Both the position numbers and the translations under genes were made by a program. The notes under the pieces are model-generated. The model made no database searches, was not told the origin of the DNA, and was given only the letters and a program-made list of their open reading frames with translations. From NCBI RefSeq assembly GCF_022836935.1, contig NZ_CP083239.1:4168001-4232000 (forward strand): a stretch of DNA of 64,000 nt, read 5' to 3'. Origin of the DNA: Ancylobacter polymorphus. Lineage in GTDB: Bacteria; Pseudomonadota; Alphaproteobacteria; Rhizobiales; Xanthobacteraceae. This document shows, piece after piece, positions 1 through 18,154 of the stretch (the stretch's first letter is position 1; the number at the start of each line of letters is the position of its first letter).

Positions 1-1
1 C

Positions 2-256
2 ATCCGCATCAACGCGGTCGGGCCGGGCCGCACCAAAACCGCGCTGTGGATCAACCGCGCCACCAAAATGGCTGCCGAGCGCGGCGTGCCGGTGGACGAG
101 ATCTACGCGGAATTCGCGGAAGAAATCCCGCTGAAACGCTTCGCCGAGCCGGACGAGATCGCGGTCATGGTCGCGTGGCTCGCCAGCCCGCTCGCCAGCT
201 ACATCACCGGCCAATCCATCAATGTCGACGGCGGCATCGCGCGCGGCCTCGTTTAA
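2..256 (+). CDS. Short-chain dehydrogenase/reductase (SDR), C-terminal fragment
   Basis: The gene is cut by the left edge; 84 codons remain, ending in TAA. The visible part carries the SDR C-terminal pattern: INAVGPG near the start, a variable substrate loop, a PDEIA helix, the LASPLASYITGQ segment and the closing NVDGG. This is the classical NAD(P)-dependent SDR fold, but the Rossmann and YxxxK motifs lie outside the window, so the substrate cannot be read. It lies 11 bases upstream of an MmgE/PrpD gene on the same strand and is probably the preceding cistron of the same catabolic operon. Confidence 0.85.
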   Translation: MRINAVGPGRTKTALWINRATKMAAERGVPVDEIYAEFAEEIPLKRFAEPDEIAVMVAWLASPLASYITGQSINVDGGIARGLV

Positions 257-267
257 AGGAGAACAGA

Positions 268-1635
268 ATGTCCCACAAAGACGTCACCCGCCAGCTCGCC
301 GCCTGGATCGTCGGCTGCAAGCTCGCCGACATTCCCGCCTCGGTTCAGGCCGAGGGCGTGCGCACCTTCTTCAACTGGATGGGCTGCGCCGTCGGCGGCG
401 CCCGCCACGAGACGGTGGACCGCGCGCTCGCCGGAATCTCGCCCTTCGCCGGCAAGCCGCAGGCGACCGTGATCGGGCGCGGCGAGCGGCTGGACGTGCC
501 GAACGCGGCGCTGATCAACGGCATCTCCTCGCATGTGCTCGACTATGACGACACCCATCTGAAGACCATCATCCACCCCGCCGGCCCGGTCGCCTCCGCT
601 TTGCTGGCGGCGGCGGAATATCACCCAATGACCGGCGCGGACTTCCTCAACGCGCTGATCGTCGGCGTGGAAGTGGAGTGCCGGATCGGCAACAGCGTCT
701 ATCCCGCCCATTACGATCGCGGCTGGCACATCACCGGCACGACCGGCGTGTTCGGCGCCGCCGCCGCCGTCGGCCACATGCTGAAGCTCGACGCCACCCA
801 GATGACCTGGGCGCTCGGCATCGCCGCGACGCAGGCCTCGGGACTGCGCGAAATGTTCGGCACCATGTGCAAGAGCTTGCATCCCGGCGCAGCCGCCCGC
901 AACGGCGCGCTCGCCGCCTTCCTCGCCAAGGCCGGCTTCGACAGTTCGCTGCAGGCGATCGAGGCGCCGCGCGGCTTCGCCAATGTGCTCTCCACCAAGC
1001 AGGATTATAACGAGATCCTCGGCGGGCTGGGCGAGACCTGGGAAGCGGGCCTCAACTCCTACAAGCCCTTCGCCTGCGGCATCGTCATCCACCCCACCAT
1101 CGACGGCTGCCAGCAGCTGCGCGAGGAGCTGGGCGACGCAGTGAACCAGATCGCCGCCGTGCGCCTGCGCACCCATCCGCTGGTGCTGGAACTCACCGGC
1201 AAGCGCACGCCGAAGACCGGGCTGGAGACCAAGTTCAGTGTCTTCCACGCCGCCGCCTGCGCCCTGCTGCGCGGCGATGGTTCGCCCACCGCCTTCACCG
1301 ACGAGGCGGCCAACGCGCCGGATATCATCGCCCTGCGCGACAAGGTGGACGCCACCTCCGACACCGCCATCCACGAGGCCTCCGTGGTGATCGAGGTGGA
1401 GTTCAATGACGGCCGCACGATCGAGAAGACCATCGACCGCGCCATCGGCAGCCACGACAAGCCGCTGAGCAACGAGCACCTCGCGCGCAAATTCGCCCAC
1501 CAGTCGGCGCTGGTCGTCGGCGACGAGGTGACGGAACGGCTCATGGCGCTGTGCTGGCGCCTGCCGGAGCTGACCGATGCCGGCGAGATCGCCCGCGCCT
1601 CGGTGCCGGCCGGCCTGCGCGACGCGGCGGAGTGA
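268..1635 (+). CDS. MmgE/PrpD family protein (copy 1)
   Basis: 455 residues, the usual length for MmgE/PrpD, a family that includes 2-methylcitrate dehydratase, cis-aconitate decarboxylase and iminodisuccinate epimerase. ATG 268 is chosen because AAGGAG sits six bases before it. Family hallmarks are visible: SHVLDYDDTH (about residues 90-99), GVEVECRIGNSVYP, GWHITGTTGVFGAAAAVG and KSLHPGAAARNG. The family converts polycarboxylates by dehydration, epimerisation or decarboxylation without a redox cofactor. Its neighbours are beta-decarboxylating dehydrogenases that overlap or nearly abut it, so it probably prepares a hydroxy-acid substrate for them. The exact substrate is unknown. A divergent paralogue lies at 7964-9391. 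Confidence 0.9.
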   Translation: MSHKDVTRQLAAWIVGCKLADIPASVQAEGVRTFFNWMGCAVGGARHETVDRALAGISPFAGKPQATVIGRGERLDVPNAALINGISSHVLDYDDTHLKTIIHPAGPVASALLAAAEYHPMTGADFLNALIVGVEVECRIGNSVYPAHYDRGWHITGTTGVFGAAAAVGHMLKLDATQMTWALGIAATQASGLREMFGTMCKSLHPGAAARNGALAAFLAKAGFDSSLQAIEAPRGFANVLSTKQDYNEILGGLGETWEAGLNSYKPFACGIVIHPTIDGCQQLREELGDAVNQIAAVRLRTHPLVLELTGKRTPKTGLETKFSVFHAAACALLRGDGSPTAFTDEAANAPDIIALRDKVDATSDTAIHEASVVIEVEFNDGRTIEKTIDRAIGSHDKPLSNEHLARKFAHQSALVVGDEVTERLMALCWRLPELTDAGEIARASVPAGLRDAAE

Positions 1636-1640
1636 GCGCG

Positions 1641-2738
1641 GTGACGACACACGCCCCTCTGCGCATCGGCGTTCTCAATGGCGACGATATCGGCCATGAG
1701 ATCGTCCCCGCCGCCCACGCCATCGCCGATGCGGCGGCGCGGGCGAGCGGCCTCGCCATTGACTGGCGCCCCATGCCGCTCGGCCGCAAGGCGCTGGACG
1801 AGCTGGGCCACACCATGCCGCCGGGCACGCTGGAGACGCTCGGCACGCTCGACGGCTTCATCCTCGGGCCCATCGGACATCAGGCCTATCCCAAGGTGCC
1901 GGAGGCGATCAACCCGCACCCGATCCTGCGCAAGAGCTTCGATCTGTTCGCCAATGTGCGCCCCACCCGCTCCTATCCCGGGCTCGGCTGCCTCTATGAC
2001 GACATCGACCTCGTCATCGTGCGCGAGAACAATGAGGGCTTCCAGCCGGACCGCAACGTGGTGGCCGGCTCGGGCGAGTTCCGCCCGACGCACGACACCA
2101 CCATCTCGGTGCGCGTCATCACCCGCGAGGGCAGCCGCAAGGTCGCCCGCGCCGCCTTCGAGATCGCCCGCGCCCGCAAGAAGCGGCTCACCGTGGTGCA
2201 CAAGAACACGGTGTTCAAGCTCGGCTGCGGCATGTTCGTGGAAGAGTGCTACGAGGCCGGCAAGGAATTCCCCGATGTCGCCATCGAGGAAGTCATCGTC
2301 GACACCTTCGCCATGAAGCTGGTGCGCGAGCCGCAGCGCTTCGACGTCGTCGTCACGACAAACATGTTCGGTGACATCCTCACCGACGAGGCGGCCGGCC
2401 TCGTCGGCGGGCTCGGCATGGCGCCGGGCCTGTGTATCGGGCGCGGCGAGATCGCCATGGCGCAGGCCACCCACGGCTCGGCGCCCGATATCGCCGGCAA
2501 GGGGCTGGCCAACCCCTATGCAATGATCGAATCCACCCGCATGCTCATCGAATGGCTCGGCCGCCGGCGCGGCATTCCCGCCGCCGCCGAGGCCAGCGCG
2601 CGGATGAAGGCGGCGATCGAGGCCGCGCTCGCCGATCCCGCCACCCGCACCCCCGACATTCGCGGCACCGGCACCCAGGCCGACATGACCCGCGCCATTC
2701 TTTCCCATCTGGAGACCCGCACCCATGCGCCGGCATAA
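1641..2738 (+). CDS. Isopropylmalate/isocitrate dehydrogenase family protein
   Basis: 365 residues from GTG 1641, which has GGCGGAG about nine bases upstream; GTG 1632, overlapping the previous stop as GTGA, is the alternative. The fold is that of NAD-dependent beta-decarboxylating dehydrogenases. Visible are [11 protein letters not shown] at the N terminus, FANVRP, the VRENNEG loop, the VVHKNTVFK lysine segment, the [19 protein letters not shown] metal-aspartate motif and [12 protein letters not shown]. These enzymes oxidise a 2-hydroxy acid with a 3-carboxylate and release CO2. The N terminus has GDD where the family usually has GDG. The FQPDRN stretch differs from LeuB and Icd, so the substrate is probably different. 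It is translationally coupled to its neighbours. Confidence 0.85.
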
Positions 2739-3831
2739 AATCGCGCTCATTCCCGGAGACGGCATCGGCTCCGACGTCATCAACGCCGGCCGCGAGGTGC
2801 TGGACGCGCTGGCCGCCAGCGATGGCGGCTTCGGCTTCGATTTCGAGAGCTTCGACTGGGGCTCCGACCGCTACCGCCGCACCGGCACGATGATGCCGGA
2901 AGACGGCGTCGACACGCTGCGCGGCTTCGACGCCATCTATTTCGGCGCGGTCGGCGACCCGAAGATTCCCGACCACATCACCCTGTGGGAACTGCGCCTC
3001 GCCATCTGCCAGGGGCTCGACCAATACGCCAATGTCCGCCCCTCGCGCCTCCTGCCGAACATCACCGGCCCGCTGCGGCCGGAACTCGGCAAGGACATCG
3101 ACTGGGTAATCGTGCGCGAGAACAGCGAGGGCGAATATGCCGGCGCGGGGGGTCGGGCGCATCGCGGCCTGCCGATCGAGGTCGGCATCGATGTGTCGGT
3201 GTTCACCCGCACCGGCATCGAGCGCGTCTGCCGCTTTGCCTGCGAGCTCGCCATGTCGCGCCCGCGCAAAAAGCTCACCATCGTCACCAAGTCCAATGCC
3301 CAGCGTCACGGCATGGTGCTGTGGGACGAGGTGTGCAAGGGCGTCATCAAGGACTTCCCCGAACTCGATGTCGACTGGATGCTGGTCGACGCCATGACCA
3401 TGCGCCTCGTTCTGCGGCCGGGCACGGTGGACACGGTGCTCGCCACCAATCTGCATGCCGATGTGCTCTCCGACCTCGCCTCGGCGCTGAGCGGCAGCCT
3501 CGGCATCGGCGCCACCGCGAACCTCGCGCCGGACCGTTCCACCCCTTCCATGTTCGAGCCGATCCACGGCTCCGGCTTCGACCTGATCGGCAAGGGCATC
3601 GCCAACCCGATCGGCTCCTTCTGGAGCGCGGTGATGATGCTGGAACATCTCGGCGAGACCGCCGCCGCCGCGCGGCTGATGGCGGCGATCGAGACCGTGA
3701 CGGCGGAGGGCACCACGCTGACACACGATCTCGGCGGAACGGCGGGCACGGCCCAAGTGACGGCGGCGGTGATCACTAGCCTTCAACGTCAAAGTGTCGC
3801 AGAAGCCGGCACAACCCGGAGCGTGGCGTAA
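2725..3831 (+). CDS. Tartrate dehydrogenase/decarboxylase-like (TtuC family)
   Basis: 368 residues; the ATG overlaps the 3' end of the previous gene by 14 bases. The sequence has IALIPGDGIG, FDWGSDRY, the ICQGLDQYANVRP block, VIVRENSEGEY, KSNAQRHGMVLWDEV and the NLHADVLSDLASALSGSLG aspartates. The F-x-WGS and ICQG-DQYANVRP blocks are typical of tartrate dehydrogenase (TtuC), which oxidises D-malate, tartrate or related 2-hydroxydiacids with NAD, Mn2+ and K+. Tartrate or malate is the family expectation rather than a demonstrated substrate, because this locus carries a second TtuC-like enzyme (6852-7937) plus an IMDH-type enzyme. Confidence 0.85.
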   Translation: MRRHKIALIPGDGIGSDVINAGREVLDALAASDGGFGFDFESFDWGSDRYRRTGTMMPEDGVDTLRGFDAIYFGAVGDPKIPDHITLWELRLAICQGLDQYANVRPSRLLPNITGPLRPELGKDIDWVIVRENSEGEYAGAGGRAHRGLPIEVGIDVSVFTRTGIERVCRFACELAMSRPRKKLTIVTKSNAQRHGMVLWDEVCKGVIKDFPELDVDWMLVDAMTMRLVLRPGTVDTVLATNLHADVLSDLASALSGSLGIGATANLAPDRSTPSMFEPIHGSGFDLIGKGIANPIGSFWSAVMMLEHLGETAAAARLMAAIETVTAEGTTLTHDLGGTAGTAQVTAAVITSLQRQSVAEAGTTRSVA

Positions 3832-3855
3832 AATCTGGAAGCGTTCCAGCGCCGA

Positions 3856-3867
3856 ATTGTTTACAAT
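3856..3867. promoter_or_regulatory. ATTGT-N2-ACAAT palindrome before GntR gene 1
   Basis: ATTGTTTACAAT has perfect 5-base arms around a 2-base centre, the usual shape of a GntR/FCD operator. It ends six bases before the ATG of the GntR gene, so binding there would block its own start. Its TACAAT half also resembles a -10 box. The same palindrome recurs at 6571 and 6760. Confidence 0.55.
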
Positions 3868-3873
3868 CGACGG

Positions 3874-4575
3874 ATGAGCATCATCAGCGATTCCGCGCCC
3901 CTCAGCGATCTGTCAGTTGTGAAGAGCGTCTCGCTCACGAGCGCGCTCGAGAAGGAACTCGAGCGCCTCATTCTCACGGGCGAGCTGGAGCCGGGGGTTC
4001 GGATCAACGAGATCCACCTTTCGAACCGCTTCGGCACCAGCCGCGGCCCGATCCGCGAGGCCACCCGCAGCCTGGAGGCCAAGGGCTTGGTCGAAGTCGT
4101 CCGCAATCGCGGTGTCTTCGTCCGGCGCCTCTCCGTCGAGGATGCGGTGGAAATCTACGATGTGCGTGCCGCGCTGTTCGGCCAGGCCGGGCGGCTCTTG
4201 GCCGAGCGCATGACCGACGGACTGCTGGCCGAGCTGACCCGTATGGTCGACGAGATGGACGCGGTCGCCGAGCGCGGCAGCTTCGACGACTACTACCCGC
4301 TCAATCTCGGCTTTCACAATCTCATCGTCGGCTCCTGCGGCAACCGCACGCTGCAGGCGGAGTACCACCGCTTCGTCAACAAGCTGCACCTGTTCCGCGC
4401 CCGCGCGCTGGTGCAGGGCGGCGGCCTCGCCGTTTCCAATCGCGAGCACCGGGCGATGCTGGAAGCGCTGGCCTCCGGCGATGGCGACCGGGCGCAGATG
4501 ACGCATTGGCGGCATGTGGCGCTGGCCAAGCGCCGGCTCATCGCCGCCGTCGACGGCCCGGCGCGGCACGACTGA
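3874..4575 (+). CDS. GntR family transcriptional regulator, FCD domain (copy 1)
   Basis: 233 residues. An N-terminal winged helix-turn-helix (about residues 20-85) contains LILTGELEPGVRINEIHLSNRFGTSRGPIREA in the normal GntR arrangement. It is followed by an all-helical FCD ligand domain with YDVRAALFGQAGRLLAER and a histidine-bearing NLGFHNLIVGSCGN helix that would ligate a metal. FCD regulators usually sense a carboxylate from the pathway they control. No ribosome binding site precedes the ATG, while a TACAAT sequence lies six bases upstream, so the transcript may be leaderless. It directly follows the MmgE-IMDH-TtuC genes and probably controls them. Confidence 0.9.
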   Translation: MSIISDSAPLSDLSVVKSVSLTSALEKELERLILTGELEPGVRINEIHLSNRFGTSRGPIREATRSLEAKGLVEVVRNRGVFVRRLSVEDAVEIYDVRAALFGQAGRLLAERMTDGLLAELTRMVDEMDAVAERGSFDDYYPLNLGFHNLIVGSCGNRTLQAEYHRFVNKLHLFRARALVQGGGLAVSNREHRAMLEALASGDGDRAQMTHWRHVALAKRRLIAAVDGPARHD

Positions 4576-4625
4576 GTCGGCTTTTTCGAGCGCCGAGTCC
4601 TCAACGCGACCCACTTCCGGAACAA

Positions 4626-4735
4626 CGTCATCCTGAGGTGCCCGGCGTTTCGCCGGGCCTCGAAGGATGTTGAAGCAGCCCGCCCGATGAGCATCCTTCG
4701 AGGCTCGGGCTGCGCCCGAGCACCTCAGGATGACG
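4626..4735. repeat. Long intergenic palindrome (CGTCATCCTGAGGTGC family)
   Basis: CGTCATCCTGAGGTGC at the left is mirrored by GCACCTCAGGATGACG at the right. Further complementary segments lie inside (CATCCTTCGAGGC against GCCTCGAAGGATG, and GGCGAAACGCC-like arms). The whole can fold into a branched hairpin. It lies between the convergent GntR and PdxA-like genes, a common position for REP-type elements of Rhizobiales, and may act as a bidirectional transcript end. Confidence 0.8.
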
Positions 4736-4772
4736 TCGCACTGGGCGAGGTCGCCCCATGTCCGTCGCGCCC

Positions 4773-5801
4773 TCACGCAGCGGCGGCGCGGGCCTCGATC
4801 TTGCGCGCGGCTACCCGGGCGGCGAGGCGGACGGCGGACTGGAACGCGCCGATATCGGCGACGCCCTTGCCGACAATGTCGAAGGCCGTGCCATGCGCCG
4901 GGGTGGTGAACACCACCTCCAGCCCGGCGGTGATGGTCACGCCCTTGTTGAAGCCCTTCAGCTTGGTCGCGATCTGGCCCTGATCGTGATACATCGCCAG
5001 CACGCTGTCATAGGCGCCGGCAAAAGCCTTGAGATAAACCGTGTCGGACGGGAACGGCCCCTCGCAGGCGATGCCCTCCTTCGCCATCGCCTCCACCGCC
5101 GGGCGGATGAAGTCGATTTCCTCGGTGCCGAACAGACCGCCCTCGCCGCCATGCGGGTTGAGCGCGGCCACCGCGATGCGCGGGCGGGCAATGCCGGCCT
5201 TGCGCATGGTCTCGTCCGCCAGTCGCAGCGCGCCGCAGATGCTGTCATAGGTCACCTGGTCCAGCGCCGTGCGCAGCGAGACATGCGAGGTGACGCGGGT
5301 CATCCACTGCCCTTCCAGCACGTTCATCTCGCTGAACGGGCCCTTATGGTCGAGCAGATGCGCGAACATCTTGTGTTCGTCCGGGAAGCGCCAGCCGCCT
5401 TTGAACATGGCCTGCTTGTTCAGCGGGGCGAAGCAGACGCCATCGACCTCGCCGGCCTTGGCGAAGTCGATGGCGCGGGACAGCGTGTCGCCGGTCAGCC
5501 GGCCGGACTCGGGGTTGGCGATGCCGAGCGGGAACAGGTCGGGGTCGGTATTGCCGAGATCGACCATGGGAATGCCGGGCGCGCTCCAGTCCACCGCGCC
5601 GGGCGAGGCGTAGCGCACCAGGTCAAGGCTGACCCCGGCATGGCGCGCGCCCATGTCCAGCACACGCGCATCGCCCACCACGACGATCCGCGCCACATCG
5701 TCGAAGCCGCCCTCGCTCAGCAGGCGCGCGGTCTGTTCCGGGCCGATGCCGGTGCAATCGCCGGGGGTGAGGGCGAGAATGGGAAGCGGGTGCGCGGTCA
5801 T
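4773..5801 (-). CDS. PdxA family dehydrogenase, PdxA2-like
   Basis: 342 residues on the minus strand from ATG 5801. The sequence is a 4-hydroxythreonine-4-phosphate dehydrogenase homologue: LALTPGDCTGIGPE at the N terminus, NKQAMFKGG, the metal histidines in VTSHVSLRTA and MYHDQGQI, and TTPAHGTAFDIVGKG near the C terminus. The TPAHGTAFDI form resembles PdxA2 (4-phospho-threonate/erythronate dehydrogenases of sugar-acid catabolism), whereas biosynthetic PdxA usually has a VDHGTALD form. The reaction is NAD-dependent oxidation and decarboxylation. It sits four bases downstream of a GntR gene inside a catabolic island, again pointing to catabolism rather than vitamin B6 synthesis. No DUF1537 kinase partner is seen in the window. 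Confidence 0.85.
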   Translation of the reverse strand: MTAHPLPILALTPGDCTGIGPEQTARLLSEGGFDDVARIVVVGDARVLDMGARHAGVSLDLVRYASPGAVDWSAPGIPMVDLGNTDPDLFPLGIANPESGRLTGDTLSRAIDFAKAGEVDGVCFAPLNKQAMFKGGWRFPDEHKMFAHLLDHKGPFSEMNVLEGQWMTRVTSHVSLRTALDQVTYDSICGALRLADETMRKAGIARPRIAVAALNPHGGEGGLFGTEEIDFIRPAVEAMAKEGIACEGPFPSDTVYLKAFAGAYDSVLAMYHDQGQIATKLKGFNKGVTITAGLEVVFTTPAHGTAFDIVGKGVADIGAFQSAVRLAARVAARKIEARAAAA

Positions 5802-5805
5802 GGAA

Positions 5806-6543
5806 CTACCTGTCCTTGGGGCGTGACTGTCGGGGATCGAGCGGGCCGGGTCGCGCCTCGGTGGCGCTGTCGTCTTCCAGCGTGCGCAGGAAGCGCGCCT
5901 TGCCGGCGAGGATGTGCCGCTCCAGCAGCCGGGCCGCGCCGGTGCCGTCGCTCTGGCGCAGCGCCTCGAAAATGGCTTTGTGCTCGTCATTGGAGGTGCG
6001 CATTGAGCCGGGCAGCACCAGCCCGCGCCGGCGGAACAGATGCAGTTCCGCTTCCAGCAGCGGGTAGAGCTCGATCAGCTTGTCATTGTCGGAAGCGAGC
6101 ACGACCTGGCGGTGGAACTCGTTGTTCAGCGTGTAGAAGGTGGCGATGTCGGGTGCCTCGATCGCCGCGTCCATCTGCGCGATCAGCTCCGCCATCTCAC
6201 GCAGCTGCACCGTGGTGATGATGGCGGCCGCCAACCGCCCGGCCGTGCCGAACAGGCCGGCGCGGATGTCGTAGAGGTCGAGTGCCTCCTTGGTGGAGAC
6301 CTCGCGCACGAAGAAGCCGCGATTGAGTTCGCTGCGCAGCAGGCCGATCTGCTCCAGCGCCCGGCACGCCTCGCGCACCGGACCCCGGCTGATGCCGAGC
6401 CGCAGCGCCAGCGTGCTTTCATTGATGCGCGTGCCGCCGGTGAGTTCGCCAGTGCCGATCATCCGCTCGATCTCGCGCTGGATCAGCGGCACGAAGGAGG
6501 CGGTGCGGGGCGTGCGCGGGGGAGGAGCGACCGGGCGGAGCAT
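5806..6543 (-). CDS. GntR family transcriptional regulator, FCD domain (copy 2)
   Basis: 245 residues, transcribed leftwards into the PdxA2-like gene with a four-base gap. The winged helix-turn-helix carries MIGTGELTGGTRINESTLA and LRLGISRGPVREACRALEQ. The FCD domain shows YDIRAGLFGTAGRLAA and the NNEFHRQVVLASDNDKLIEL metal-histidine helix. It is paralogous to the regulator at 3874-4575 and both genes carry the same upstream palindrome. It is divergent from the TtuC-like gene at 6852, so it is well placed to control both directions. The ligand is unknown but is expected to be an organic acid of this pathway. Confidence 0.9.
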   Translation of the reverse strand: MLRPVAPPPRTPRTASFVPLIQREIERMIGTGELTGGTRINESTLALRLGISRGPVREACRALEQIGLLRSELNRGFFVREVSTKEALDLYDIRAGLFGTAGRLAAAIITTVQLREMAELIAQMDAAIEAPDIATFYTLNNEFHRQVVLASDNDKLIELYPLLEAELHLFRRRGLVLPGSMRTSNDEHKAIFEALRQSDGTGAARLLERHILAGKARFLRTLEDDSATEARPGPLDPRQSRPKDR

Positions 6544-6570
6544 GGCGCCATTTCGTCGCCAAAATCGCTG

Positions 6571-6582
6571 ATTGTCAACAAT
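6571..6582. promoter_or_regulatory. ATTGT-N2-ACAAT palindrome, site near GntR gene 2
   Basis: ATTGTCAACAAT has perfect 5-base arms and begins 28 bases upstream of the start of the leftward GntR gene. It is the same motif as at 3856-3867, which suggests one operator recognised by one or both FCD regulators. Confidence 0.55.
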
Positions 6583-6759
6583 GATGATTGAAATGACAGG
6601 GATAGCCCGACAGATGGCGCCCCGCGTCTTGCCGCAGGGGAAGCGTAAATCAGTCGGACATTTTACACTTAAGTATCTGTTATAATTTTATTTTCTTTGA
6701 AACTGGCAACCACGCGCCTCCCAGATCGCCGCCAGGAGACAATCGGGCGCGCCGGAAAA

Positions 6760-6771
6760 ATTGTTGACAGT
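6760..6771. promoter_or_regulatory. ATTGT-N2-ACAAT-type palindrome, site near the TtuC-like gene
   Basis: ATTGTTGACAGT differs from the reverse complement of the 6571 site at a single position and lies 80 bases upstream of ATG 6852. It runs into a second small dyad, GACA-GT-TGTC (6766-6775). Its position fits an operator for the rightward unit. Confidence 0.5.
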
Positions 6772-6851
6772 TGTCGGTCCGTTGAACACTGTCCTGCCGC
6801 ACACGTCGCGGTGCCGCCGCCGAAATCCCGCCTGATCTCCAAGGAGTTTCC

Positions 6852-7937
6852 ATGACGACCTATTCCATAGCGGTCATTCCCGGCGACGGGATCGGCAATG
6901 AGGTGGTGCCGGAGGCGCAGCGCGTTCTGGAGGCGGCGAGCCGCATTGGCGGCTTCTCCTTCGACTGGACCCATTACGACTGGAGCTGCGAGCGCTTCGC
7001 CAAGACCGGGGCGATGATGCCCGCCGATGGCTTGCAGCAAATCCGCCACAAGGACGCGATCTTCCTCGGCGCCGTCGGCTTTCCCGGCGTGCCGGATCAT
7101 GTCTCGCTCTGGGGCCTGCTGATCCCGATCCGCCGCAGCTTCCACCAATATGTGAATCTGCGGCCGGTGAAGCTGCTCGCCGGCGTCGAAAGCCCGCTGA
7201 AGGGCCGCGAGGCCGGCTCGATCGACTTCTATGTCGTGCGCGAGAACAATGAGGGCGAGTATTCCTCCATTGGCGGCCGGCTCTATGAGGGGCTGGAGGA
7301 CGAGCTGGTGATGCAGCAGTCCATCTTCACCCGCCGTGGCTGCGACCGGGTGATGCGCTACGCCTTCGAGCTGGCCAAGGGCCGCAAGCAGCACGTCACC
7401 TCGGCCACCAAGTCGAACGGCATAAGCCACACCATGCCGTATTGGGACGAGCGCTTCGCCGCGATCTCGAAGGAATATCCCGGCTTCACCACCGACCAGT
7501 TCCACATCGACATTCTCACCGCGCATTTCGTCCGCAATCCGGACTGGTTCGACGTAGTGGTCGCCTCCAACCTGTTCGGCGACATCCTGTCCGATCTCGG
7601 CCCGGCGGTGGTGGGCTCCATCGGCATCGCGCCCGGCGGCAACATCAATCCCGAGAAGGACTACCCCTCCATGTTCGAGCCGGTGCACGGCTCGGCGCCG
7701 GATATCGCCGGCAAGGGCGTGGCCAACCCCATCGGCCAGATTTGGTCGGGAGCCATGATGCTGCGCCATCTCGGCGAGGAAGCCACCGCCGCCGCCATCG
7801 AAAAGGCGATCGAGGATGTGCTCGCCCGCCGCGACAGCCTCACCCGCGACCTCGGCGGCACCGCCGGCACGCGCGAACTCACCGACGCCATCATCGGTGC
7901 CCTGCCTTCCGTCGCCGCCCGTGCCCCGGCCGCCTGA
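6852..7937 (+). CDS. Tartrate dehydrogenase-like beta-decarboxylating dehydrogenase (copy 2)
   Basis: 361 residues; ATG 6852 follows AAGGAG by five bases. Motifs in order: SIAVIPGDGIGNEVVPEA, HYDWSCERFAKTGAMMP, the QYVNLRP substrate-arginine segment, YVVRENNEGEYS, ATKSNGISHTMPYWDER, and NLFGDILSDLGPAVVGSIG with the metal aspartates, then [14 protein letters not shown]. It belongs to the TtuC/IMDH family acting on 2-hydroxydiacids with NAD and a divalent metal. It is followed after 26 bases by an MmgE/PrpD gene, the same enzyme pairing as in the left half of the island. IPIRRSFHQYVNLRP differs from the ICQG form of copy 1, so the two probably act on different substrates. Confidence 0.85.
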   Translation: MTTYSIAVIPGDGIGNEVVPEAQRVLEAASRIGGFSFDWTHYDWSCERFAKTGAMMPADGLQQIRHKDAIFLGAVGFPGVPDHVSLWGLLIPIRRSFHQYVNLRPVKLLAGVESPLKGREAGSIDFYVVRENNEGEYSSIGGRLYEGLEDELVMQQSIFTRRGCDRVMRYAFELAKGRKQHVTSATKSNGISHTMPYWDERFAAISKEYPGFTTDQFHIDILTAHFVRNPDWFDVVVASNLFGDILSDLGPAVVGSIGIAPGGNINPEKDYPSMFEPVHGSAPDIAGKGVANPIGQIWSGAMMLRHLGEEATAAAIEKAIEDVLARRDSLTRDLGGTAGTRELTDAIIGALPSVAARAPAA

Positions 7938-7963
7938 CGCTCGACATAAAGAGGAAACGCCCC

Positions 7964-9391
7964 ATGACGCTGCACCAGACCAACCCCGCCCAGGCCCAGC
8001 CCATCGTCGAGGGCCTGACCCAGGACGTGGCCGAATTCGTCGTCGGCACCTCCTATGCCGATCTGCCGGCCGAGGTGGTCGAACTCGGCAAGAAGTCGAT
8101 CCTTGATGGCATCGGCCTCGCCCTCTCCGGCTCGGTGGCGAAAAGCGGCGAGCACATTCAGGCCTATCTCAAGGGCCTCGGCATCCAGGAAGGGCCGGCA
8201 ACCGTCATCGGCACCTCGCTCAAGGTGCCGCCGCGCTTCGCTGCCTTCGCCAATGGCGTCGGCATCCATGCCGATGATTATGACGACACCCAGCTCGCCG
8301 TCGCCAAGGACCGGGTCTATGGCCTGCTCACCCACCCGACCGCGCCGGCCCTGCCGGCCGCGCTCGCTGTGGCGGAAGCCGCCGGCACCTCCGGCACGGA
8401 GATGATGCTGGCCTATCACCTCGGCGTCGAGGTGGAGTGCAAGATCGCCGAGGCGATCAACCCGCGCCATTACCAGCACGGCTTCCACGCCACCGCGACG
8501 TGCGGCACCTATGCCGCCGCCGCCGCCGCCGGCAAGCTGAAGGGGCTGAATGTCGAGCAGATGGTGCGCGCCTTCGGCTGCGCCGGAAGCCAGTCGGCCG
8601 GGCTGCGGGAGAATTTCGGCACCATGATGAAGCCGTTCCACGCCGGCCGTTCCTCGGAGAGCGGCGTGGTGGCGGCCGATTTCGCCGCGCTGGGCTGGAC
8701 CACCACTGACAAGATCCTGGAAGCGCCGCGCGGCTTCTTCCAGGCGGCGGGCGGCGGCTTCGACCCCAGCGCCATCGTCGGCAAGCTCGGCCAGCCCTGG
8801 ACCTTCGCCTCGCCCGGCGTCTCCATCAAGCCGCATCCGTCGGGCTCGCTCACCCATCCCGGCATGACCAAGATGCTGGAGCTGATCCGCACCCATTCCA
8901 TCAAGGCCGAGGATGTGGAGCGCGTGGATGTCGGCACCAACCAGAACATGCCGAACGCGCTGATCCATCACCGCCCGAAGAACGAGCTTCAGGCCAAGTT
9001 CTCCATGGAATTCTGCATGGCCATCCTGCTGCTCGACGGGCGCGGCAGCCTGCCCGAATTCACCGACGAGACGGTGGAGCGCGAGGATGTGAAGGCGATG
9101 ATCGAGCGGGTGAACTTCCATGTCCACCCGGAGGCGGAAGCCGCCGGCTACGACAAGATGACCACCATCATCGACATCCACCTGAAGGACGGGCGCACCA
9201 TCTCCGGCCGGTCCGATTTCGGCAAAGGCAGCCCGGCCAACCCGATGACCTATGACGAAGCCGCCGACAAGTTCCGCGGCTGCGCCGAATTCGCCAAATG
9301 GGACAAGGCGAAGACCGAATCCATCGTCGAGACGGTGCGCCGGCTGGAGCAGCTGCGCGATATCCGCGAGCTCACGCGCCTCTGCGCCTGA
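7964..9391 (+). CDS. MmgE/PrpD family protein (copy 2)
   Basis: 475 residues; ATG 7964 is preceded by AAGAGGAA. Features shared with the copy at 268-1635 are HADDYDDTQL, GVEVECKIAEAINPRHY, HATATCGTYAAAAAAGKL, GLRENFGTMMKPFHAGR and LEAPRGFFQA. The family acts on polycarboxylates by epimerisation, dehydration or decarboxylation. It is about 20 residues longer than copy 1, with an insertion around KDRVYGLLTHPTAPALP. It is the second gene of the TtuC-MmgE pair and ends at a strong terminator. The substrate is unknown. Confidence 0.9.
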   Translation: MTLHQTNPAQAQPIVEGLTQDVAEFVVGTSYADLPAEVVELGKKSILDGIGLALSGSVAKSGEHIQAYLKGLGIQEGPATVIGTSLKVPPRFAAFANGVGIHADDYDDTQLAVAKDRVYGLLTHPTAPALPAALAVAEAAGTSGTEMMLAYHLGVEVECKIAEAINPRHYQHGFHATATCGTYAAAAAAGKLKGLNVEQMVRAFGCAGSQSAGLRENFGTMMKPFHAGRSSESGVVAADFAALGWTTTDKILEAPRGFFQAAGGGFDPSAIVGKLGQPWTFASPGVSIKPHPSGSLTHPGMTKMLELIRTHSIKAEDVERVDVGTNQNMPNALIHHRPKNELQAKFSMEFCMAILLLDGRGSLPEFTDETVEREDVKAMIERVNFHVHPEAEAAGYDKMTTIIDIHLKDGRTISGRSDFGKGSPANPMTYDEAADKFRGCAEFAKWDKAKTESIVETVRRLEQLRDIRELTRLCA

Positions 9392-9454: not shown

Positions 9455-10321
9455 TCAGCCCTCCAGCTTGTCCTGCGTCCGCGTGTCGAAATCGCCGGCG
9501 TCGTGGCGCTCGCGCAGCTGTTCGTGCGGTTCGCCGGTCATGCGGTTGACCATGCGCCCGCGCTTCACCGCCTGCCGGGCGAACAGCTCATCCGCCCAGC
9601 GCAGGACGTTGGTGTATTCGTGCCCGGAGAGGAAGGTGCCGGCATCGCCATAGGTCCAGCCCTTCACCAGTGCGCCATACCAGGGCAGCACCGCCATATC
9701 GGCGATGGTGTAGTCGTCGCCGGCGAGATAGCGGGTCTCGGCCAGCCGCCGGTCCAGCACGTCGAGCTGGCGCTTGGCTTCCATGGCGTAGCGGTCGATG
9801 GCGTATTCGATCTTCACCGGCGCATAGGCGTAGAAATGGCCGAAGCCGCCGCCGAGAAACGGCGCGCTGCCCATCTGCCAGAACAGCCAGGACAGGCATT
9901 CGGCACGCTTGGCCGGCTCGGTCGGCAGGAAGGCCCCGAACTTCTCCGCGAGGTGCAGCAGGATGGCGCCGGATTCGAACACCCGGATCGGTGTCTCGCC
10001 CGAGCGGTCCATCAGCGCGGGGATTTTCGAGTTCGGGTTGACCTCGACAAAGCCGGAACCGAACTGCTCGCCCTCGCCGATCTTGATCAGCCAGGCGTCG
10101 TATTCCGCCCCGGTGTGGCCGGCGGCGAGCAGTTCCTCGAACAGGATCGTCACCTTCTGCCCGTTCGGCGTGGCGAGCGAATAGAGCTGGAACGGGTGCG
10201 TGCCCACCGGCAGCGCCTTCTCATGCGTCGCCCCGGCGATCGGGCGGTTGATGTTGGCGAAGGCGCCGCCACTGGCCTTGTTCCAGACCCAGACCTTGGG
10301 CGGCGTGTAAGTGTCGGACAT
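9455..10321 (-). CDS. yghU: Glutathione S-transferase, YghU family
   Basis: 288 residues, the length of E. coli YghU. The start at 10321 is chosen because the protein then begins MSDTYTPPKVWVWN, the family N terminus, with GGAG upstream. The thioredoxin-like domain has HPFQLYSLATPNGQKVTILFEE and NPNSKIPAL; the helical C-terminal domain has LAGDDYTIADMAVLPWYG. YghU proteins bind two glutathiones and show disulfide reductase activity. The gene is divergent from the ClC channel gene and has no evident operon partner. Confidence 0.9.
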   Translation of the reverse strand: MSDTYTPPKVWVWNKASGGAFANINRPIAGATHEKALPVGTHPFQLYSLATPNGQKVTILFEELLAAGHTGAEYDAWLIKIGEGEQFGSGFVEVNPNSKIPALMDRSGETPIRVFESGAILLHLAEKFGAFLPTEPAKRAECLSWLFWQMGSAPFLGGGFGHFYAYAPVKIEYAIDRYAMEAKRQLDVLDRRLAETRYLAGDDYTIADMAVLPWYGALVKGWTYGDAGTFLSGHEYTNVLRWADELFARQAVKRGRMVNRMTGEPHEQLRERHDAGDFDTRTQDKLEG

Positions 10322-10547
10322 ACGGGGTTCTCCATGCGCGGCGGCCGGCCCGCAGGCGGCGCCGAATCCGTGGGACATCGGGCGTGACTTTAGCCCGCCC
10401 GGCGGCGCGGTCATCCCCACAGCCATCACATCGCGGCGACGCGACCCAAGGTCAGGCGTTGCGCGTGGCCGCGTCCTTGCCTAGTCAGGCATCAGGGATT
10501 TGGGCGAGCGGGACTTGACCTCCGACAACACCTCCAGCGAGGACGGA

Positions 10548-12278
10548 ATGCCCCGGGGCCTGCGCCGGCTGGTGCGGGCGAGCGAACTCGGCATCGTTGC
10601 GCTCGCTGCGCTGGTCGGCGTCGCCGCCGGGCTGGTCGTCATCGCCATGAACATGGCCTTGCAGGGATTGCACGAACTGCTGTTCCGCATCCCCACCGCC
10701 ACCCATCTCTCGACCACGGCCGGCGTCCCCGCCCTCCTGCTGCTGCTCGTGCCCACGCTCGGCGGTCTCGCCTTCGGCCTGTGCGTGCGGGCCCTTCTGC
10801 GCACGCGCGCCAGCCCGCCGGTCGATCCCATCGAAGCCAATGCCCTGCATGGCGGGCGCATGTCGCCGGGCGACAGCCTCATTGTCGCGCTGCAGACGCT
10901 GTTCTCCAGCGGGGTCGGCGCCTCCGTGGGGCTGGAGGCCGGCTATACCCAGGCGGCGGCCGGGCTCGCCTCCTGGTTCGGCCGGGTGTTTCATGTCCGG
11001 CGCGGGGATCTGCGGCTGCTTGTCGGCTGCGGCGCCGGCGCGGCCATCGGTGCGGCCTTCGACGCGCCGCTGATGGGTGCGTTCTATGGCTTCGAGCTGG
11101 TGCTCGGCACCTATGCCATCCCCGCCTTCGTGCCGATGATGACGGCGACCTTCGCCGCCTCCCTCACCCAGCAGCTGCTCGCGCCGCCGCACCACACGCC
11201 GCTGCCCACACTGACCGCCCCGCACTTGTCCGATCTGCCGTCGGTGCTGCTGCTCGGCTTCTTCTGCGCGCTGGTCGGCATCGCGGTCATGCGCGGGGCG
11301 ACGCTGGTGGAAGCGGGCTTTCGCCGCTCCGCTTTGCCCGCCTGGCTGCGTCCGGCGGTGAGTGGGCTCCTCGTCGGCGCGCTCGCTTTGTGGAACCCGG
11401 CGGTGCTCTCGGCCGGGCATGGCGCGGTCTATCATTTCCTCGCCACCGACACCGGGCTCACCTTGGCGGCGCTGCTCTTGGTGGCGAAGGTCACGGCCTC
11501 CTCCGTCTCCATCGGCGCCGGCTTTCGCGGCGGCCTGTTCTTCGCCTCGCTGCTGATGGGGGTGATGGCGGGACGCGTGTTCGCCGGCGGCATGAGCCTG
11601 ATCCTGCCCGATGTCGTCACCGCCCACGCCTTCTACGCGCTGATCGGCATGAGCGCGCTCGCCGTCGCCGTGGTCGGCGGGCCGATGACCATGACGCTGC
11701 TGGCGCTGGAAATGACCGGCAATCTGCAATTGACCCTGTCGGTGCTGGCGGCGGCCGGCACCGCCTCGCTGGCGACGCGGCTGCTGTTCGGCTTCTCCTT
11801 CGCCACATGGCGCTTCCATCTGCGCGGCGAGAATATTCGCGGCGCGCATGATGTCGGCTGGTTGCGCGAGCTTACCGTCGCCACGCTGATGCGCCGGGAG
11901 GTGCCGCTCATCGAGGTCGACACCCCGCTGATGGAAGCCCGCCGGCGCTACCCGCCCGGCGCCGCCGCCGCTCTCGTCGCCACCGCGAATGGCCGCTATG
12001 CCGGCATGATCGCGCCCGCCGCGCTGTTCGAGCCGGTGGAGGACGACGCGCCCGCGAGCCTGCGCCCCCTGCTGCGCCATACCGACACCGCGCTGCGCCC
12101 GACCGCCACGCTGCGCGAGGCGCTGGACCTGTTCGAGCGCAGCGAGGCCGACGCGCTGGCCGTCACCCTGCCCGACGGCACGGTGGCCGGCGTGCTCAGC
12201 GAGGCGCAGGCGGTGAAGCGCTACAGCGACGAGATGCGCCGGCGGCTCAGTGAGGTCACGGGCGAGAAATTCGACTGA
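10548..12278 (+). CDS. ClC family chloride channel/transporter with degenerate C-terminal CBS pair
   Basis: About 576 residues from ATG 10548, which has GAGGA four bases upstream; TTG 10500 is an alternative giving 592. The membrane part has many hydrophobic helices. The gating glutamate is kept in a changed context: GLEAGYTQ stands where canonical proteins have GREGPTVQ. The helix-N filter motif reads GGLFFASLLMG. DAPLMGAFYGFELVLG matches the helix-H region. The last 130 residues look like two weak CBS repeats (LMRREVPLIEVDTPLMEA; TATLREALDLFERSEADALAV). It probably moves chloride or a similar anion, as channel or H+ antiporter. Confidence 0.88.
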   Translation: MPRGLRRLVRASELGIVALAALVGVAAGLVVIAMNMALQGLHELLFRIPTATHLSTTAGVPALLLLLVPTLGGLAFGLCVRALLRTRASPPVDPIEANALHGGRMSPGDSLIVALQTLFSSGVGASVGLEAGYTQAAAGLASWFGRVFHVRRGDLRLLVGCGAGAAIGAAFDAPLMGAFYGFELVLGTYAIPAFVPMMTATFAASLTQQLLAPPHHTPLPTLTAPHLSDLPSVLLLGFFCALVGIAVMRGATLVEAGFRRSALPAWLRPAVSGLLVGALALWNPAVLSAGHGAVYHFLATDTGLTLAALLLVAKVTASSVSIGAGFRGGLFFASLLMGVMAGRVFAGGMSLILPDVVTAHAFYALIGMSALAVAVVGGPMTMTLLALEMTGNLQLTLSVLAAAGTASLATRLLFGFSFATWRFHLRGENIRGAHDVGWLRELTVATLMRREVPLIEVDTPLMEARRRYPPGAAAALVATANGRYAGMIAPAALFEPVEDDAPASLRPLLRHTDTALRPTATLREALDLFERSEADALAVTLPDGTVAGVLSEAQAVKRYSDEMRRRLSEVTGEKFD

Positions 12279-14097: not shown

Positions 14098-14275
14098 GCG
14101 ATGGCCGCACGCCCCCGCTTCCGCCCGCCCCGCTTCGCCCCGCTCGACCTCGCGCCGCGCGACTTCAGGCCCGCCCGCGTCGAGGACGCGCGACGCGGCG
14201 TGGCCGGCGCGGGAGCCGCCCCCTCCTCGGCCCCCGCGTCTCTCTCTTCTTCCGATCTTGCTTCAGGAAACGACC

Positions 14276-15574
14276 ATGCTGGACCAGACTCGCCCCCACT
14301 CGCCCGACAGCTTCCCCGCCCCGACCTGGGCGCCCGACCGCTGGCGCGGCATTCATCGCAGCTACACTCCCGCTGACGTCGCCCGTCTCGCCGGCTCGCT
14401 GCGCATCGAGCACACGCTCGCCGCCAACGGCGCCCGCCGTCTCTGGGACCTGCTGCAGACCCAGGCTTTCGTGCCCACCATGGGCACCTATACCGGCATC
14501 CAGGCGGTGCAGCAGGTGAAGGCCGGGCTGGAGGCGATCTATCTCTCCGGCTGGCAGGTCGCGGCCGACGGCAATTCCGCCGGCGACATGTATCCGGACC
14601 AGAGCCTCTATCCCGTCGACAGCGTTCCCGCCGTGGTCCGGCGCATCAACAAGGCGCTAATGCGCGCCGACCAGATCCAGACCATGGAGCGCGCCGACGG
14701 CGCCAAGGGCCCGCAGCACGATTTCTTCGTGCCGATCATCGCCGACGCCGAAGCCGGCTTCGGCGGCCAGCTCAACGCCTATGAACTGACCAAGGCGCTG
14801 ATCGAAGCCGGCGCGGCGGCGGTGCATTTCGAGGACCAGCTGGCCTCGGAGAAGAAGTGCGGCCATCTCGGCGGCAAGGTGCTGGTGCCCACCCGCCAGT
14901 TCGTCCGCACGCTGAACGCCGCCCGCCTCGCCGCCGACGTGCTCGGCGTGCCGACCGTCATCATGGCGCGCACCGATGCGGAATCGGCCCGTCTCATCAC
15001 CTCCGATGTGGACGAGCTGGACCGGCCGTTCATATCAGGCGAGCGCACGCAGGAAGGCTTCTACCGCTACAATGGCGGCTTCGAAGCCGGCATCGCCCGC
15101 GCCATCGCCTATGCGCCCTATGCCGATTTGCTGTGGTGCGAGACCTCGACCCCGAGCCTCGACGACGCCCGCCGCTTCGCCGAAGGCGTGCACCGTGTGC
15201 ATCCGGGGAAGATGCTCGCCTATAACTGCTCGCCGTCCTTCAACTGGGCCAAGCATATGGACAAGGCGCAGATGAAGACCTTCCAGGCCGAACTGGGGGC
15301 CATGGGCTACAAGTACCAGTTCATCACGCTCGCCGGCTTCCACAACCAGTGCTTCACCACCTTCGAGCTGGCGCGGCGCTACCGCGAGGACGGCATGGCC
15401 GCCTATTCCGAGCTGCAGCAGCGCGAATTCGCCGCCGAGGCGCAGGGCTTCACCGCCACGCGCCACCAGCGCGAAGTGGGCACCAGCTATTTCGACGCCA
15501 TCGCCACCGTGCTGAGCGAAGGCCTGAGCGCCACCACGGCGATGCAGGACTCGACCGAGACCGCCCAGTTCTGA
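14276..15574 (+). CDS. aceA: Isocitrate lyase
   Basis: 432 residues from ATG 14276, preceded by AGGAA. The active-site signature KKCGH falls at residues 193-197 with the catalytic cysteine at 195. Other blocks are [52 protein letters not shown] and YNCSPSFNW. It cleaves isocitrate to glyoxylate and succinate in the glyoxylate shunt, in the cytosol. Malate synthase lies 393 bases downstream on the same strand and a ScfR-like regulator lies upstream. Together they make a complete shunt locus for growth on acetate, fatty acids or other acetyl-CoA sources. Confidence 0.97.
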
Positions 15575-15967
15575 GGCGGACCACCTTGTCACCCCGGGGC
15601 GGCGCATGCCGCGCGCCCGGTGGCGGTTCGGGGAAAACCGCCACCGGGTCCGGCGCGAGCCGGACATCCCCGGGGTGACGTTTTCGTCATCCCCTGGGTG
15701 ACATCTTTGTCATCCCTCGGGGTGACGTTTTCGTTGTTCCGGGCCACCTCGCCCCAAATGACGCTTGGTCAACCCAGGGTGAGCTTCACCCTTCGCTGCA
15801 ACGCAAACGCAGCGAGAGGCGTTGTCGGACAAGGATTGCCCCGTGCATCGCGGCCGCATCCGACTATCTGCGATGTTGCGCCGCACCCGCACTTTTGTTT
15901 ATGTGAATGCACAGCTGTGCCGGCGGCTCGCGGCAACCGGCCATCCGCTCGCGTGAAGGGACCCGTT
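15575..15967 (+). promoter_or_regulatory. aceA-glcB intergenic region
   Basis: No gene is supported in these 393 bases, although the malate synthase frame stays open upstream of its start. The region contains a GCGCCGGACCCGGTGGCGG-type inverted stretch near 15600-15660, the GTGAC-GTCAT tandem repeats (separate entry), and a lower-GC stretch about 15880-15930. A GAAGGG ribosome binding site lies just before ATG 15968. Confidence 0.5.
15668..15737. repeat. Three tandem 23-24 bp repeats with GTGAC-GTCAT dyads
   Basis: GTGAC occurs at 15675, 15698 and 15722, giving periods of 23 and 24 bases. Each copy has the shape CC-N2-GGGTGAC-N6-GTCAT, except that the third ends in GTTGT. Each is a near-dyad because GTGAC is almost the reverse complement of GTCAT. 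The array lies 230-300 bases upstream of malate synthase and could be a cooperative protein-binding array. Confidence 0.65.
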
Positions 15968-18154
15968 ATGACTCATACCGACGTCGCCGGCCTGAAGGTC
16001 GATTCCGCCCTTGTCGATTTCATCAATAATGAAGCCATTCCCGGCACCGGGGTGGACAAGGCCGCCTTCTGGGAGAGCTTTGCCGGCATCGTGCGCGACC
16101 TTGCCCCCCGCAACGCGGAGCTGCTCGCCCGCCGCGACGAATTGCAGGCGCAGATCGACGCCTGGCACCGCGCCCACCGCAACAAGCCGATCGACCCCGT
16201 CGCCTATGAGGTGTTCCTGGCGGAGATCGGCTATCTGCTGCCGGAGCCGGACGCCTTCGAGGTCGTCACCGACAAGGTGGACGAGGAACTCGCCCGCATC
16301 CCCGGCCCGCAGCTGGTGGTGCCGGTCACCAATGCCCGTTATGCGCTGAACGCCGCCAATGCGCGCTGGGGCAGCCTCTATGACGCGCTCTACGGTACCG
16401 ATGCGCTGCCCGAGGACGGCGGCGCCACCCGCTCCAACGGGTTCAACGCGGTCCGTGCCCGGCGCGTCATCGAGAGCGCCCGCGCCTTCCTCGACGAGAG
16501 CGTGCCGCTGGCCGGCGGCAGCCATGCCGATGCCGTGGCTTACCGCGTCACCGAGGGCGCGCTGGAGGTCGAGCTCGCCTCCGGCACCCGCACCGGGCTG
16601 AAGGACGCCGCGCAATTCGCCGGCTTCGATGGCGCGGCCGAAGCGCCGACGTCCGTGCTGCTGGTCAATCACGGCCTGCACATCGATATCGTCATCGACC
16701 GCGCCCACCGCATCGGCGCCACCGACGCCGCCGGCATCGCCGACATCGTCATCGAGGCGGCAGTGACCACCATCGTCGATTGCGAGGACAGCGTCGCGGC
16801 GGTGGACGCGCAGGACAAGGTGCTGGTCTATCGCAACTGGCTCGGCCTGATGAAGGGCACGCTCAGCGCCAGCTTCGCCAAGGGCCGCGAGACGGTGGAG
16901 CGCAGCCTCGCCGCCGATCGCCGCTACACCGCGCCCAACGGCGAGGAACTCACCCTGCACGGGCGCAGCCTGATGCTGGTGCGCAATGTCGGCCAGCACA
17001 TGATGACGGACGCGGTGCTGGACGCGCAGGGCCGGGAGATTCCCGAGGCCATTCTCGATGCCGCCGTCACCTCGCTGATCGCGCTGCACGACCTCAAGGG
17101 CGAAGGCGAATTGCGCAACAGCCGCGCCGGCTCCGTCTACATCGTCAAGCCGAAGATGCACGGCCCGGAAGAGGTCGCCTTCGCGGTGGACCTGTTCGCC
17201 CGTGTCGAGCAGGCGCTGGGGCTCGACCTCAACACGCTGAAGATCGGCATCATGGATGAGGAGCGCCGCACCAGCGCCAACCTTTCCGCCTCCATCCGCG
17301 CCGCCCGCGAGCGCGTGGTGTTCATCAATACCGGCTTCCTCGACCGCACCGGCGACGAGATCCACACCTCGATGGAAGCGGGCCCGATGGTGCGCAAGAA
17401 CGAGATGAAGGCGCAGGCCTGGATCAAGGCCTATGAGGACAACAATGTCGATGCGGGCCTCGAGGCACATCTCGACGGCCATGGCCAGATCGGCAAGGGC
17501 ATGTGGGCGATGCCCGACCGCATGGCCGACATGATCGCGCAGAAGGTCGCCCATCCGCTCGCCGGCGCCAACACCGCCTGGGTGCCCTCGCCCACCGCCG
17601 CCACGCTGCACGCGCTGCACTACCACAAGGTGGACGTGTTCCAGCGGCAGGCGGAACTGCGCCACCGCAAGCGTGCCTCGCGCCGCGACCTGCTCACCAT
17701 CCCCGTGGTCGATCGCGGCAATTGGGAGCCGGCGGCGGTGCAGGAGGAACTGGACAACAACATCCAGGGTATTCTCGGCTATGTCGTGCGCTGGGTGGAC
17801 CAGGGCGTCGGCTGCTCCAAGGTGCCGGACATTCACGATGTCGGGCTGATGGAAGATCGCGCCACGCTGCGCATCTCCTCCCAGCACGTCGCCAACTGGC
17901 TGATGCACGGCGTGGTCACGGCCGAGCAGGTCGAGGAGACGCTGCGCCGCATGGCCAAGGTAGTGGACGGCCAGAATGCGGGCGACCCCGCCTATGTGCC
18001 GATGGCCCCGTCCTATGACGGCTTCGCCTTCCGCGCCGCCCGCGACCTAATCTTCGAAGGCCGTGCCCAGCCCAACGGCTACACCGAATTCGTGCTCACC
18101 CGCCGCCGCCGCGAGGCCAAGCGCGCGCAGGCACAGGCTCAGGCCGCCGCCTGA
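15968..18154 (+). CDS. glcB: Malate synthase G
   Basis: 728 residues from ATG 15968 (GAAGGG upstream), the size of the monomeric G isoform. Recognisable stretches include [19 protein letters not shown] near the N terminus, [48 protein letters not shown] and [21 protein letters not shown]. It condenses glyoxylate with acetyl-CoA to malate, completing the glyoxylate shunt begun by AceA upstream. A longer open frame runs back to 15620, but it lacks the family N terminus and a ribosome binding site. A strong terminator follows the gene. Confidence 0.96.

Follow-up and report, generated by a model that had tools for sequence, protein, structure and literature searches.

The MmgE/PrpD proteins form a large family with few known reactions, and the known substrates have a four-carbon 1,4-dicarboxylate core in common (PMC12290011). 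Another point of reference is the tartrate (ttu, TAR) operon of Allorhizobium ampelinum S4 (Agrobacterium vitis), located on plasmid pAtS4c, in which the gene of the tartrate dehydrogenase TtuC stands in a row of the order LysR regulator, MFS transporter, tartrate dehydrogenase, glycerate kinase and pyruvate kinase. As far as the available text of PMC9219206 tells, this region type has no second ttuC copy, two copies being implied in other TAR region types; TtuD is described as a class II glycerate kinase homologue (PMC2063504). The stretch considered here, 64,000 nucleotides of Ancylobacter polymorphus (contig NZ_CP083239.1, positions 4,168,001 to 4,232,000; G000:C1:4168001-4232000 in our numbering) and called the window below, opens with an island of genes that extends beyond its left edge. 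Besides two TtuC-type dehydrogenases (TtuC_A and TtuC_B), the island has, instead of the MFS transporter, LysR regulator and two kinases of the pAtS4c operon, a tripartite tricarboxylate transporter (TTT), GntR regulators, two MmgE/PrpD proteins (MmgE1 and MmgE2), the dehydrogenases IsoDH and PdxA, a fluoroacetate-dehalogenase-like (FAcD-like) hydrolase and a rhodanese. We tentatively explain it as an extended tartrate-type catabolism of C4 dicarboxylates with MmgE epimerases, the candidate substrates being 1,4-diacids with a hydroxyl or another substituent at C2 or C3. The genes listed for the window in an earlier note, made from the letters alone, are all present, judging from open reading frames (ORFs) and family profiles; the four beta-decarboxylating dehydrogenases that it counted are, strictly, three members of the Iso_dh family (PF00180) and one of the PdxA family (PF04166). 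Its statement that no pathway with this gene set has been described agrees with searches of an open-licence paper library, in which none was found.

The distribution of six island proteins, TtuC_A among them, was examined across 249 genomes of the order. MmgE2 was found in 16 of them at E <= 1e-60, and in six of these at an identity of at least 70%. The same six genomes hold IsoDH at 76% or more (22 genomes at E <= 1e-70, the next best reaching 54%) and MmgE1 at 57% or more (31 genomes at E <= 1e-60, G188 and G236 reaching 55-56%). At E <= 1e-90 the hydrolase occurs in eight genomes, namely these six (at least 71%), G211 (74%) and G037 (49%), while PdxA occurs in five, all within the six, and is missing from G040. 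The chance that two genes share the same six of 249 genomes is about 1 in 3e11 by hand arithmetic, a figure that ignores that two of the six belong to one genus. In all six, the island genes are also physically near each other. Together with the neighbourhood tallies given below, whose set of loci overlaps with the order sample (G077/L065, G129/L091, and G189/L125), these profiles bear out the expectation that the genes would be co-conserved elsewhere along with a transporter of their own, and support the view of the window genes and the transporter as a co-conserved catabolic set, to which the hydrolase-rhodanese pair belongs as well.

The spread beyond the order was followed by scanning genome contigs with seven MmgE2 orthologs, which gave 506 stretches with 407 relatives. 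Counts rest on the best 80 loci, which include several short contigs and 13 near relatives (L065-L077); metagenome bins are referred to by the labels given to them. MmgE2 is the most widespread member of the set, with orthologs at no fewer than 80 loci. Among the 67 loci beyond the 13 nearest (TctB, TctC, and MmgE paralogues except MmgE1 being left out of the tally), some TctA is near it in 43; of the seven partner families, the hydrolase is near it in 27, PdxA and the rhodanese in 24 each, IsoDH in 23, TtuC_A in 20, MmgE1 in 18, and TtuC_B in 11. Some pairs are strict: the hydrolase and the rhodanese are adjacent in 23 of 23 loci holding both, SDR and MmgE1 in 19 of 19. Gene order and content otherwise vary widely, four or more of the seven partner families being present in 26 of the 67 loci and none in 30, and TtuC_A often occurs alone. 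This variation would fit a loose funnel, in which different diacids are handled by independent routes of one or two genes each, which cluster around common transporters and regulators and do not make up one pathway. We consider this reading improbable: the near-identical distribution of MmgE2, IsoDH, hydrolase and PdxA within the order, as well as the strict pairs, argue against it.

Pacificitalea, Phyllobacterium, and Neorhizobium carry large versions of the island on plasmids. In the stretches fetched from Paracoccus versutus and P. yeei, MmgE1 is accompanied by a transporter and another MmgE, and the dehydrogenases are absent; in P. versutus, TcuA and a phosphosulfolactate-synthase gene adjoin the MmgE cluster (L042:2771-5094). 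A Caballeronia homologue of MmgE1 (55%) has none of these neighbours. Burkholderiales-type loci (L113, L132, L133, and L142) combine MmgE2 with the rhodanese, the hydrolase being detected in three of the four, and with TcuA-like, chromate-transporter-like, enolase-superfamily, TauD-like, and LeuC/LeuD-like genes; L142 has a methylisocitrate-lyase-like gene. Two metagenome bins titled Bordetella parapertussis (L090 and L113) resemble other environmental Burkholderiales bins in content, and the label looks doubtful.

The active sites of the two MmgE/PrpD proteins resemble those of epimerases. The seven residues of iminodisuccinate (IDS) epimerase named in PMC12290011 and PMC7347537 (H85, D88, H99, Y145, H150, K198, and K266) are all kept in MmgE2, where the alignment places them at H102, D105, H124, Y170, H175, K223, and K289. 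MmgE1 has the same His/Tyr/Lys columns, and the residue patterns are kept in at least 95% of 27 MmgE1 and 81 MmgE2 sequences, apart from a few weaker positions. IDS epimerase and (S)/(R)-methylsuccinate isomerase share the fold family and the catalytic His/Tyr/Lys set with the island proteins (PMC12290011), but they are distant in sequence (best PDB matches at E 7.5e-54 and 7.1e-46), and MmgE2 differs from the known epimerases in a conserved insertion, QLAVAxDRVYGLL. In contrast to methylsuccinate and itaconate systems, no itaconate or methylsuccinate genes are present among the annotated ORFs of the island. The best scores with the PrpD model of NCBIfam are 53.6 bits for MmgE1 and 47.4 bits for MmgE2 against a cut-off of 950, and scores with other PrpD models are also under cut-off. 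Both proteins are predicted to be epimerase-type, and the broader expectation that they would isomerise, dehydrate or decarboxylate is narrowed by the two-base His/Tyr set kept in both. A third MmgE type, found at other loci, is devoid of the Tyr in the alignment; at L039-L043 and L049 it forms a second recurring module with a TTT transporter (TctA2 type) and a FabG-like SDR.

The same residues speak to a reading in which the island consists of at least two modules for related hydroxy-di/tricarboxylates, with MmgE/PrpD proteins as dehydratases or decarboxylases and an isocitrate-like acid as the substrate of IsoDH. We regard it as unlikely, since both proteins have the Tyr that is typical of the two-base epimerases and missing from mammalian cis-aconitate decarboxylase (PMC7347537), and score far under the PrpD cut-offs. 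The two parallel modules that the earlier note had proposed fare differently. The MmgE1-IsoDH module is real, the two being one-strand neighbours in 24 of the 26 loci holding both. This pairing favours the dehydratase or decarboxylase reading, as do the nearest PDB relatives of IsoDH, homoisocitrate and isocitrate dehydrogenases, and the LeuC/LeuD-like and methylisocitrate-lyase-like genes of the Burkholderiales version, which would fit hydratase-lyase chemistry. The pairing of TtuC_B with MmgE2 is not general, which speaks against that reading: they are neighbours in 14 of 24 loci (the 13 closest, L065-L077, and L116), and elsewhere the gene next to MmgE2 belongs to the transporter, to the AbrB family or to something else.

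TtuC_A is 64% identical to TtuC of pAtS4c, shares the unusual active-site motif LRLxICQ with it, and looks like an A. vitis TtuC-type tartrate dehydrogenase. The Arg of 3flk is replaced by Cys in this protein, and C95 is found in 31 of 31 island-type sequences. The replacement was considered as a novelty of the island and rejected, because 12 of 12 TtuC_A homologues from loci without MmgE have R91/C95/Q96 and the A. vitis enzyme has the same change. TtuC_B keeps the usual Arg and Tyr, with 3flk as its best PDB match. In these 12 loci, which were hand-chosen from the list of TtuC_A matches, a TtuC_A/TtuC_B tandem is present in eight, glycerate-kinase homologues in four, and a FAcD-like hydrolase nearby in six (its signature is complete in five, and in one Trp replaces His); hydrolase and TtuC pair thus keep company even where MmgE is absent. 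Six Hyphomicrobiales loci devoid of MmgE (L193-L197 and L200) combine a FAcD-like hydrolase and TctC with the tandem TtuC pair, and on a Bosea plasmid the gene after a TctC-TtuC pair encodes an alpha/beta hydrolase dissimilar to the FAcD-like one. The five-gene row of pAtS4c recurs in L201, whose glycerate kinase, pyruvate kinase, and LysR have no match among the ORFs of the best 80 loci or earlier loci; its MFS transporter has one match, far from the island in L041.

In IsoDH, the position of the Tyr of homoisocitrate dehydrogenase (PDB ID: 3asj) is occupied by Gln in the alignment, within a stretch of 13 residues conserved among 35 aligned sequences. A 48% homologue in L177 keeps the Tyr, and a 47% homologue in L178 has Leu. 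Against the NCBIfam models of 3-isopropylmalate, isocitrate, and homoisocitrate dehydrogenases IsoDH scores 277.7 bits at best, under the cut-offs, with the catalytic Tyr also replaced. The island PdxA has PF04166 in common with PdxA, D-threonate-4-phosphate dehydrogenase, and TphB (best PDB match 4jqp), and scores 254.3 against an NCBIfam pdxA cut-off of 290.35. It differs from the other PdxA of the genome in having Thr, Phe, and Ala for Asn, Arg, and Asp near the C-terminus, and the island has no kinase. The Asn and Arg are presumably phosphate ligands, a point on which a literature search found no text. Housekeeping roles as a full account of the island dehydrogenases are rejected, because the genome has further genes of these families elsewhere: one that scores as LeuB, a second one of the Iso_dh family, and one for PdxA, of which the LeuB-type and the PdxA gene outscore the island genes with their family models. 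Of the alternative that the dehydrogenases serve leucine, B6 or tartrate metabolism separately, the tartrate part keeps some ground, TtuC_A looking tartrate-type and being common without the island.

The hydrolase carries the motifs GHDRGAR, YHWFF, CEDYRA, and a final GH, as in its nearest solved relative, Alr0039 (PDB ID: 3qyj), which is listed as defluorinating enzyme NOS0089 in PMC11022551. With this protein and RPA1163, both fluoroacetate dehalogenases, it shares an Asp nucleophile, an Arg pair for the carboxylate, a His-Trp-Tyr halide pocket, and a His base. Their HGxPQT motif in the oxyanion region corresponds to HGNPLT, and, unlike those enzymes, the island hydrolase always lies inside diacid gene clusters in the loci examined; its likeness to dehalogenases is one of sequence. 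The rhodanese, with 1yt8 as best PDB match, keeps TCAGRTR (CxGRTR) in domain 2. Next to a distant rhodanese homologue in L181 lies a Cys/Met pyridoxal phosphate enzyme.

The hydrolase could be the entry point for a diacid substituted with a halide or sulfur leaving group, the rhodanese handling released sulfur and the rest being shared C4-acid metabolism. The conservation of the hydrolase signature (Asp, Arg, Arg, His, Trp, Tyr, His), found in 95% or more of 31 aligned sequences, points in this direction, as do the adjacency of hydrolase and rhodanese wherever both are present, the CxGRTR of domain 2, and the neighbour in L181; we nevertheless give this reading little credence. Six loci have the hydrolase without the rhodanese and three have the reverse, only one of ten scanned ORFs near rhodanese homologues is a sulfur enzyme, and the tallied neighbour families include no recurring exporter of fluoride or halide. 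In addition, many proteins without a known role have the complete FAcD signature. A bolder version, equally doubtful, is a widespread undescribed pathway in which the FAcD-type hydrolase, coupled to the multi-domain rhodanese, would remove a leaving group (a halide, sulfur or the oxygen of an epoxide) from a naturally occurring substituted diacid, with new MmgE epimerases, Tyr-less IsoDH, and non-phosphate PdxA feeding the product to tartrate-type metabolism.

Within the tartrate-type scheme, the gene set, its co-conservation, the families, the active-site residues, and the kinship of TtuC_A to A. vitis TtuC are read from sequence, and from them we infer reactions, substrates, a step order, and a regulation. 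The TTT transporter would import the acid, and the hydrolase might displace a leaving group beside a carboxylate by means of its Asp nucleophile and two carboxylate-binding Arg, which would yield a 2-hydroxy acid. MmgE1 and MmgE2 may invert the carbon beside a carboxylate via an enolate, with His and Tyr as the bases, and so provide one stereoisomer for the dehydrogenases. Of these, TtuC_A would oxidise tartrate, TtuC_B might oxidise and decarboxylate acids of the meso-tartrate or D-malate type, and IsoDH and the non-phosphate PdxA may handle further stereoisomers or homologues. The two GntR regulators would control the island.

Several points weigh against this scheme. We know of no MmgE/PrpD enzyme for tartrate or malate. 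TtuC_A was found in 84 of the 249 genomes at E <= 1e-90, and 48 of the 53 genomes in which it reaches at least 61% do not have the island; its presence thus says little about the island's own substrate. At 15 loci TctA stands beside MmgE2 with none of the seven partner families, so that MmgE2 may serve another pathway there, and in the Burkholderiales version LeuC/LeuD-like and lyase genes take the place of MmgE1 and IsoDH. No glycerate kinase is present in the fetched surroundings of the island, the one MOFRL gene of the genome being far away. The rhodanese has no role in the scheme, and TctC of the A. polymorphus genome studied carries an apparent frameshift. The characterised methylsuccinate isomerase has no detectable activity on citramalate or (R)-malate, according to the available text of PMC12290011.

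Table 1. Features of the island in the window and in the adjoining 18 kb to its left (stretch L007, in which a position equals the window position plus 18000).
Feature	Position	Strand	Family matches and remarks
SDR dehydrogenase (S1), C-terminal part	1-256	+	PF13561, PF00106
MmgE1, MmgE/PrpD family, predicted epimerase-type	268-1635	+	PF03972/PF19305
IsoDH, Iso_dh family	1632-2738	+	PF00180; no NCBIfam cut-off reached
TtuC_A, A. vitis TtuC-type tartrate dehydrogenase (by likeness), LRLxICQ motif	2725-3831	+	TIGR02089 508.8 vs cut-off 470.4
GntR/FCD regulator 1	3874-4575	+	PF07729, PF00392; TIGR03338 under cut-off
PdxA-family dehydrogenase	4773-5801	-	PF04166; under pdxA cut-off
GntR/FCD regulator 2	5806-6543	-	PF07729, PF00392; 42% identity to regulator 1
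TtuC_B, tartrate/D-malate dehydrogenase type	6852-7937	+	TIGR02089 548.9, NF006048 526.2, both above cut-off
MmgE2, MmgE/PrpD family	7964-9391	+	PF03972/PF19305
AbrB-family membrane protein	L007:16294-17478		precedes SDR, left of window
TctA and TctB-/TctC-like ORFs (TTT)	left of window	-	TctB/TctC by similarity to other loci
Alpha/beta hydrolase, FAcD-like	L007:10047-10976		beyond TctA, left of window
Rhodanese, three matched stretches	L007:10973-12562		beyond TctA, left of window

The coordinates look operon-like. The spacing is 11 bp from SDR to MmgE1, 4 bp between PdxA and GntR regulator 2, and 26 bp from TtuC_B to MmgE2; MmgE1 overlaps with IsoDH, and IsoDH with TtuC_A. The full SDR gene (L007:17462-18256) starts left of the window and overlaps with the AbrB-family gene. 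By MmgE2, the closest named genomes are those of Ancylobacter and relatives (89-99% in L065-L073). TctC is spread over two frames at L007:14910-16002 (window about -3090 to -1998), compared with an intact 363-codon frame in G077; this split of the transporter binding protein would reflect either a sequencing error or a real lesion. To the right of the island (window 9455-12278) follow a glutathione-transferase-like ORF (minus strand) and, on the plus strand, a CLC-type channel-like ORF, similar ORFs being clustered within nearest relatives only. A few kilobases away are isocitrate lyase-like and malate synthase G-like ORFs (window 14258-18154), which are not counted as island members, relatives not having been searched for them. 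These four are named by reading.

Most enzymes of the island fall into known families, though in branches without an assigned function, and the pathway, for small acids related to tartaric acid, looks undescribed. A set so tightly linked, which soil, marine, and plant-associated bacteria carry on chromosomes as well as plasmids, points to an acid that is common in nature and whose use is unexplained. If the tartrate-type reading is true, the annotations "transcriptional regulator AbrB", "4-hydroxythreonine-4-phosphate dehydrogenase", and "haloacetate dehalogenase" are misleading in these clusters; if the hydrolase-rhodanese pathway is true, FAcD-like enzymes would gain a physiological home outside fluoroacetate. 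For the MmgE/PrpD family, the island offers at least two new reactions for testing, and it ties a FAcD-like hydrolase to the metabolism of diacids.

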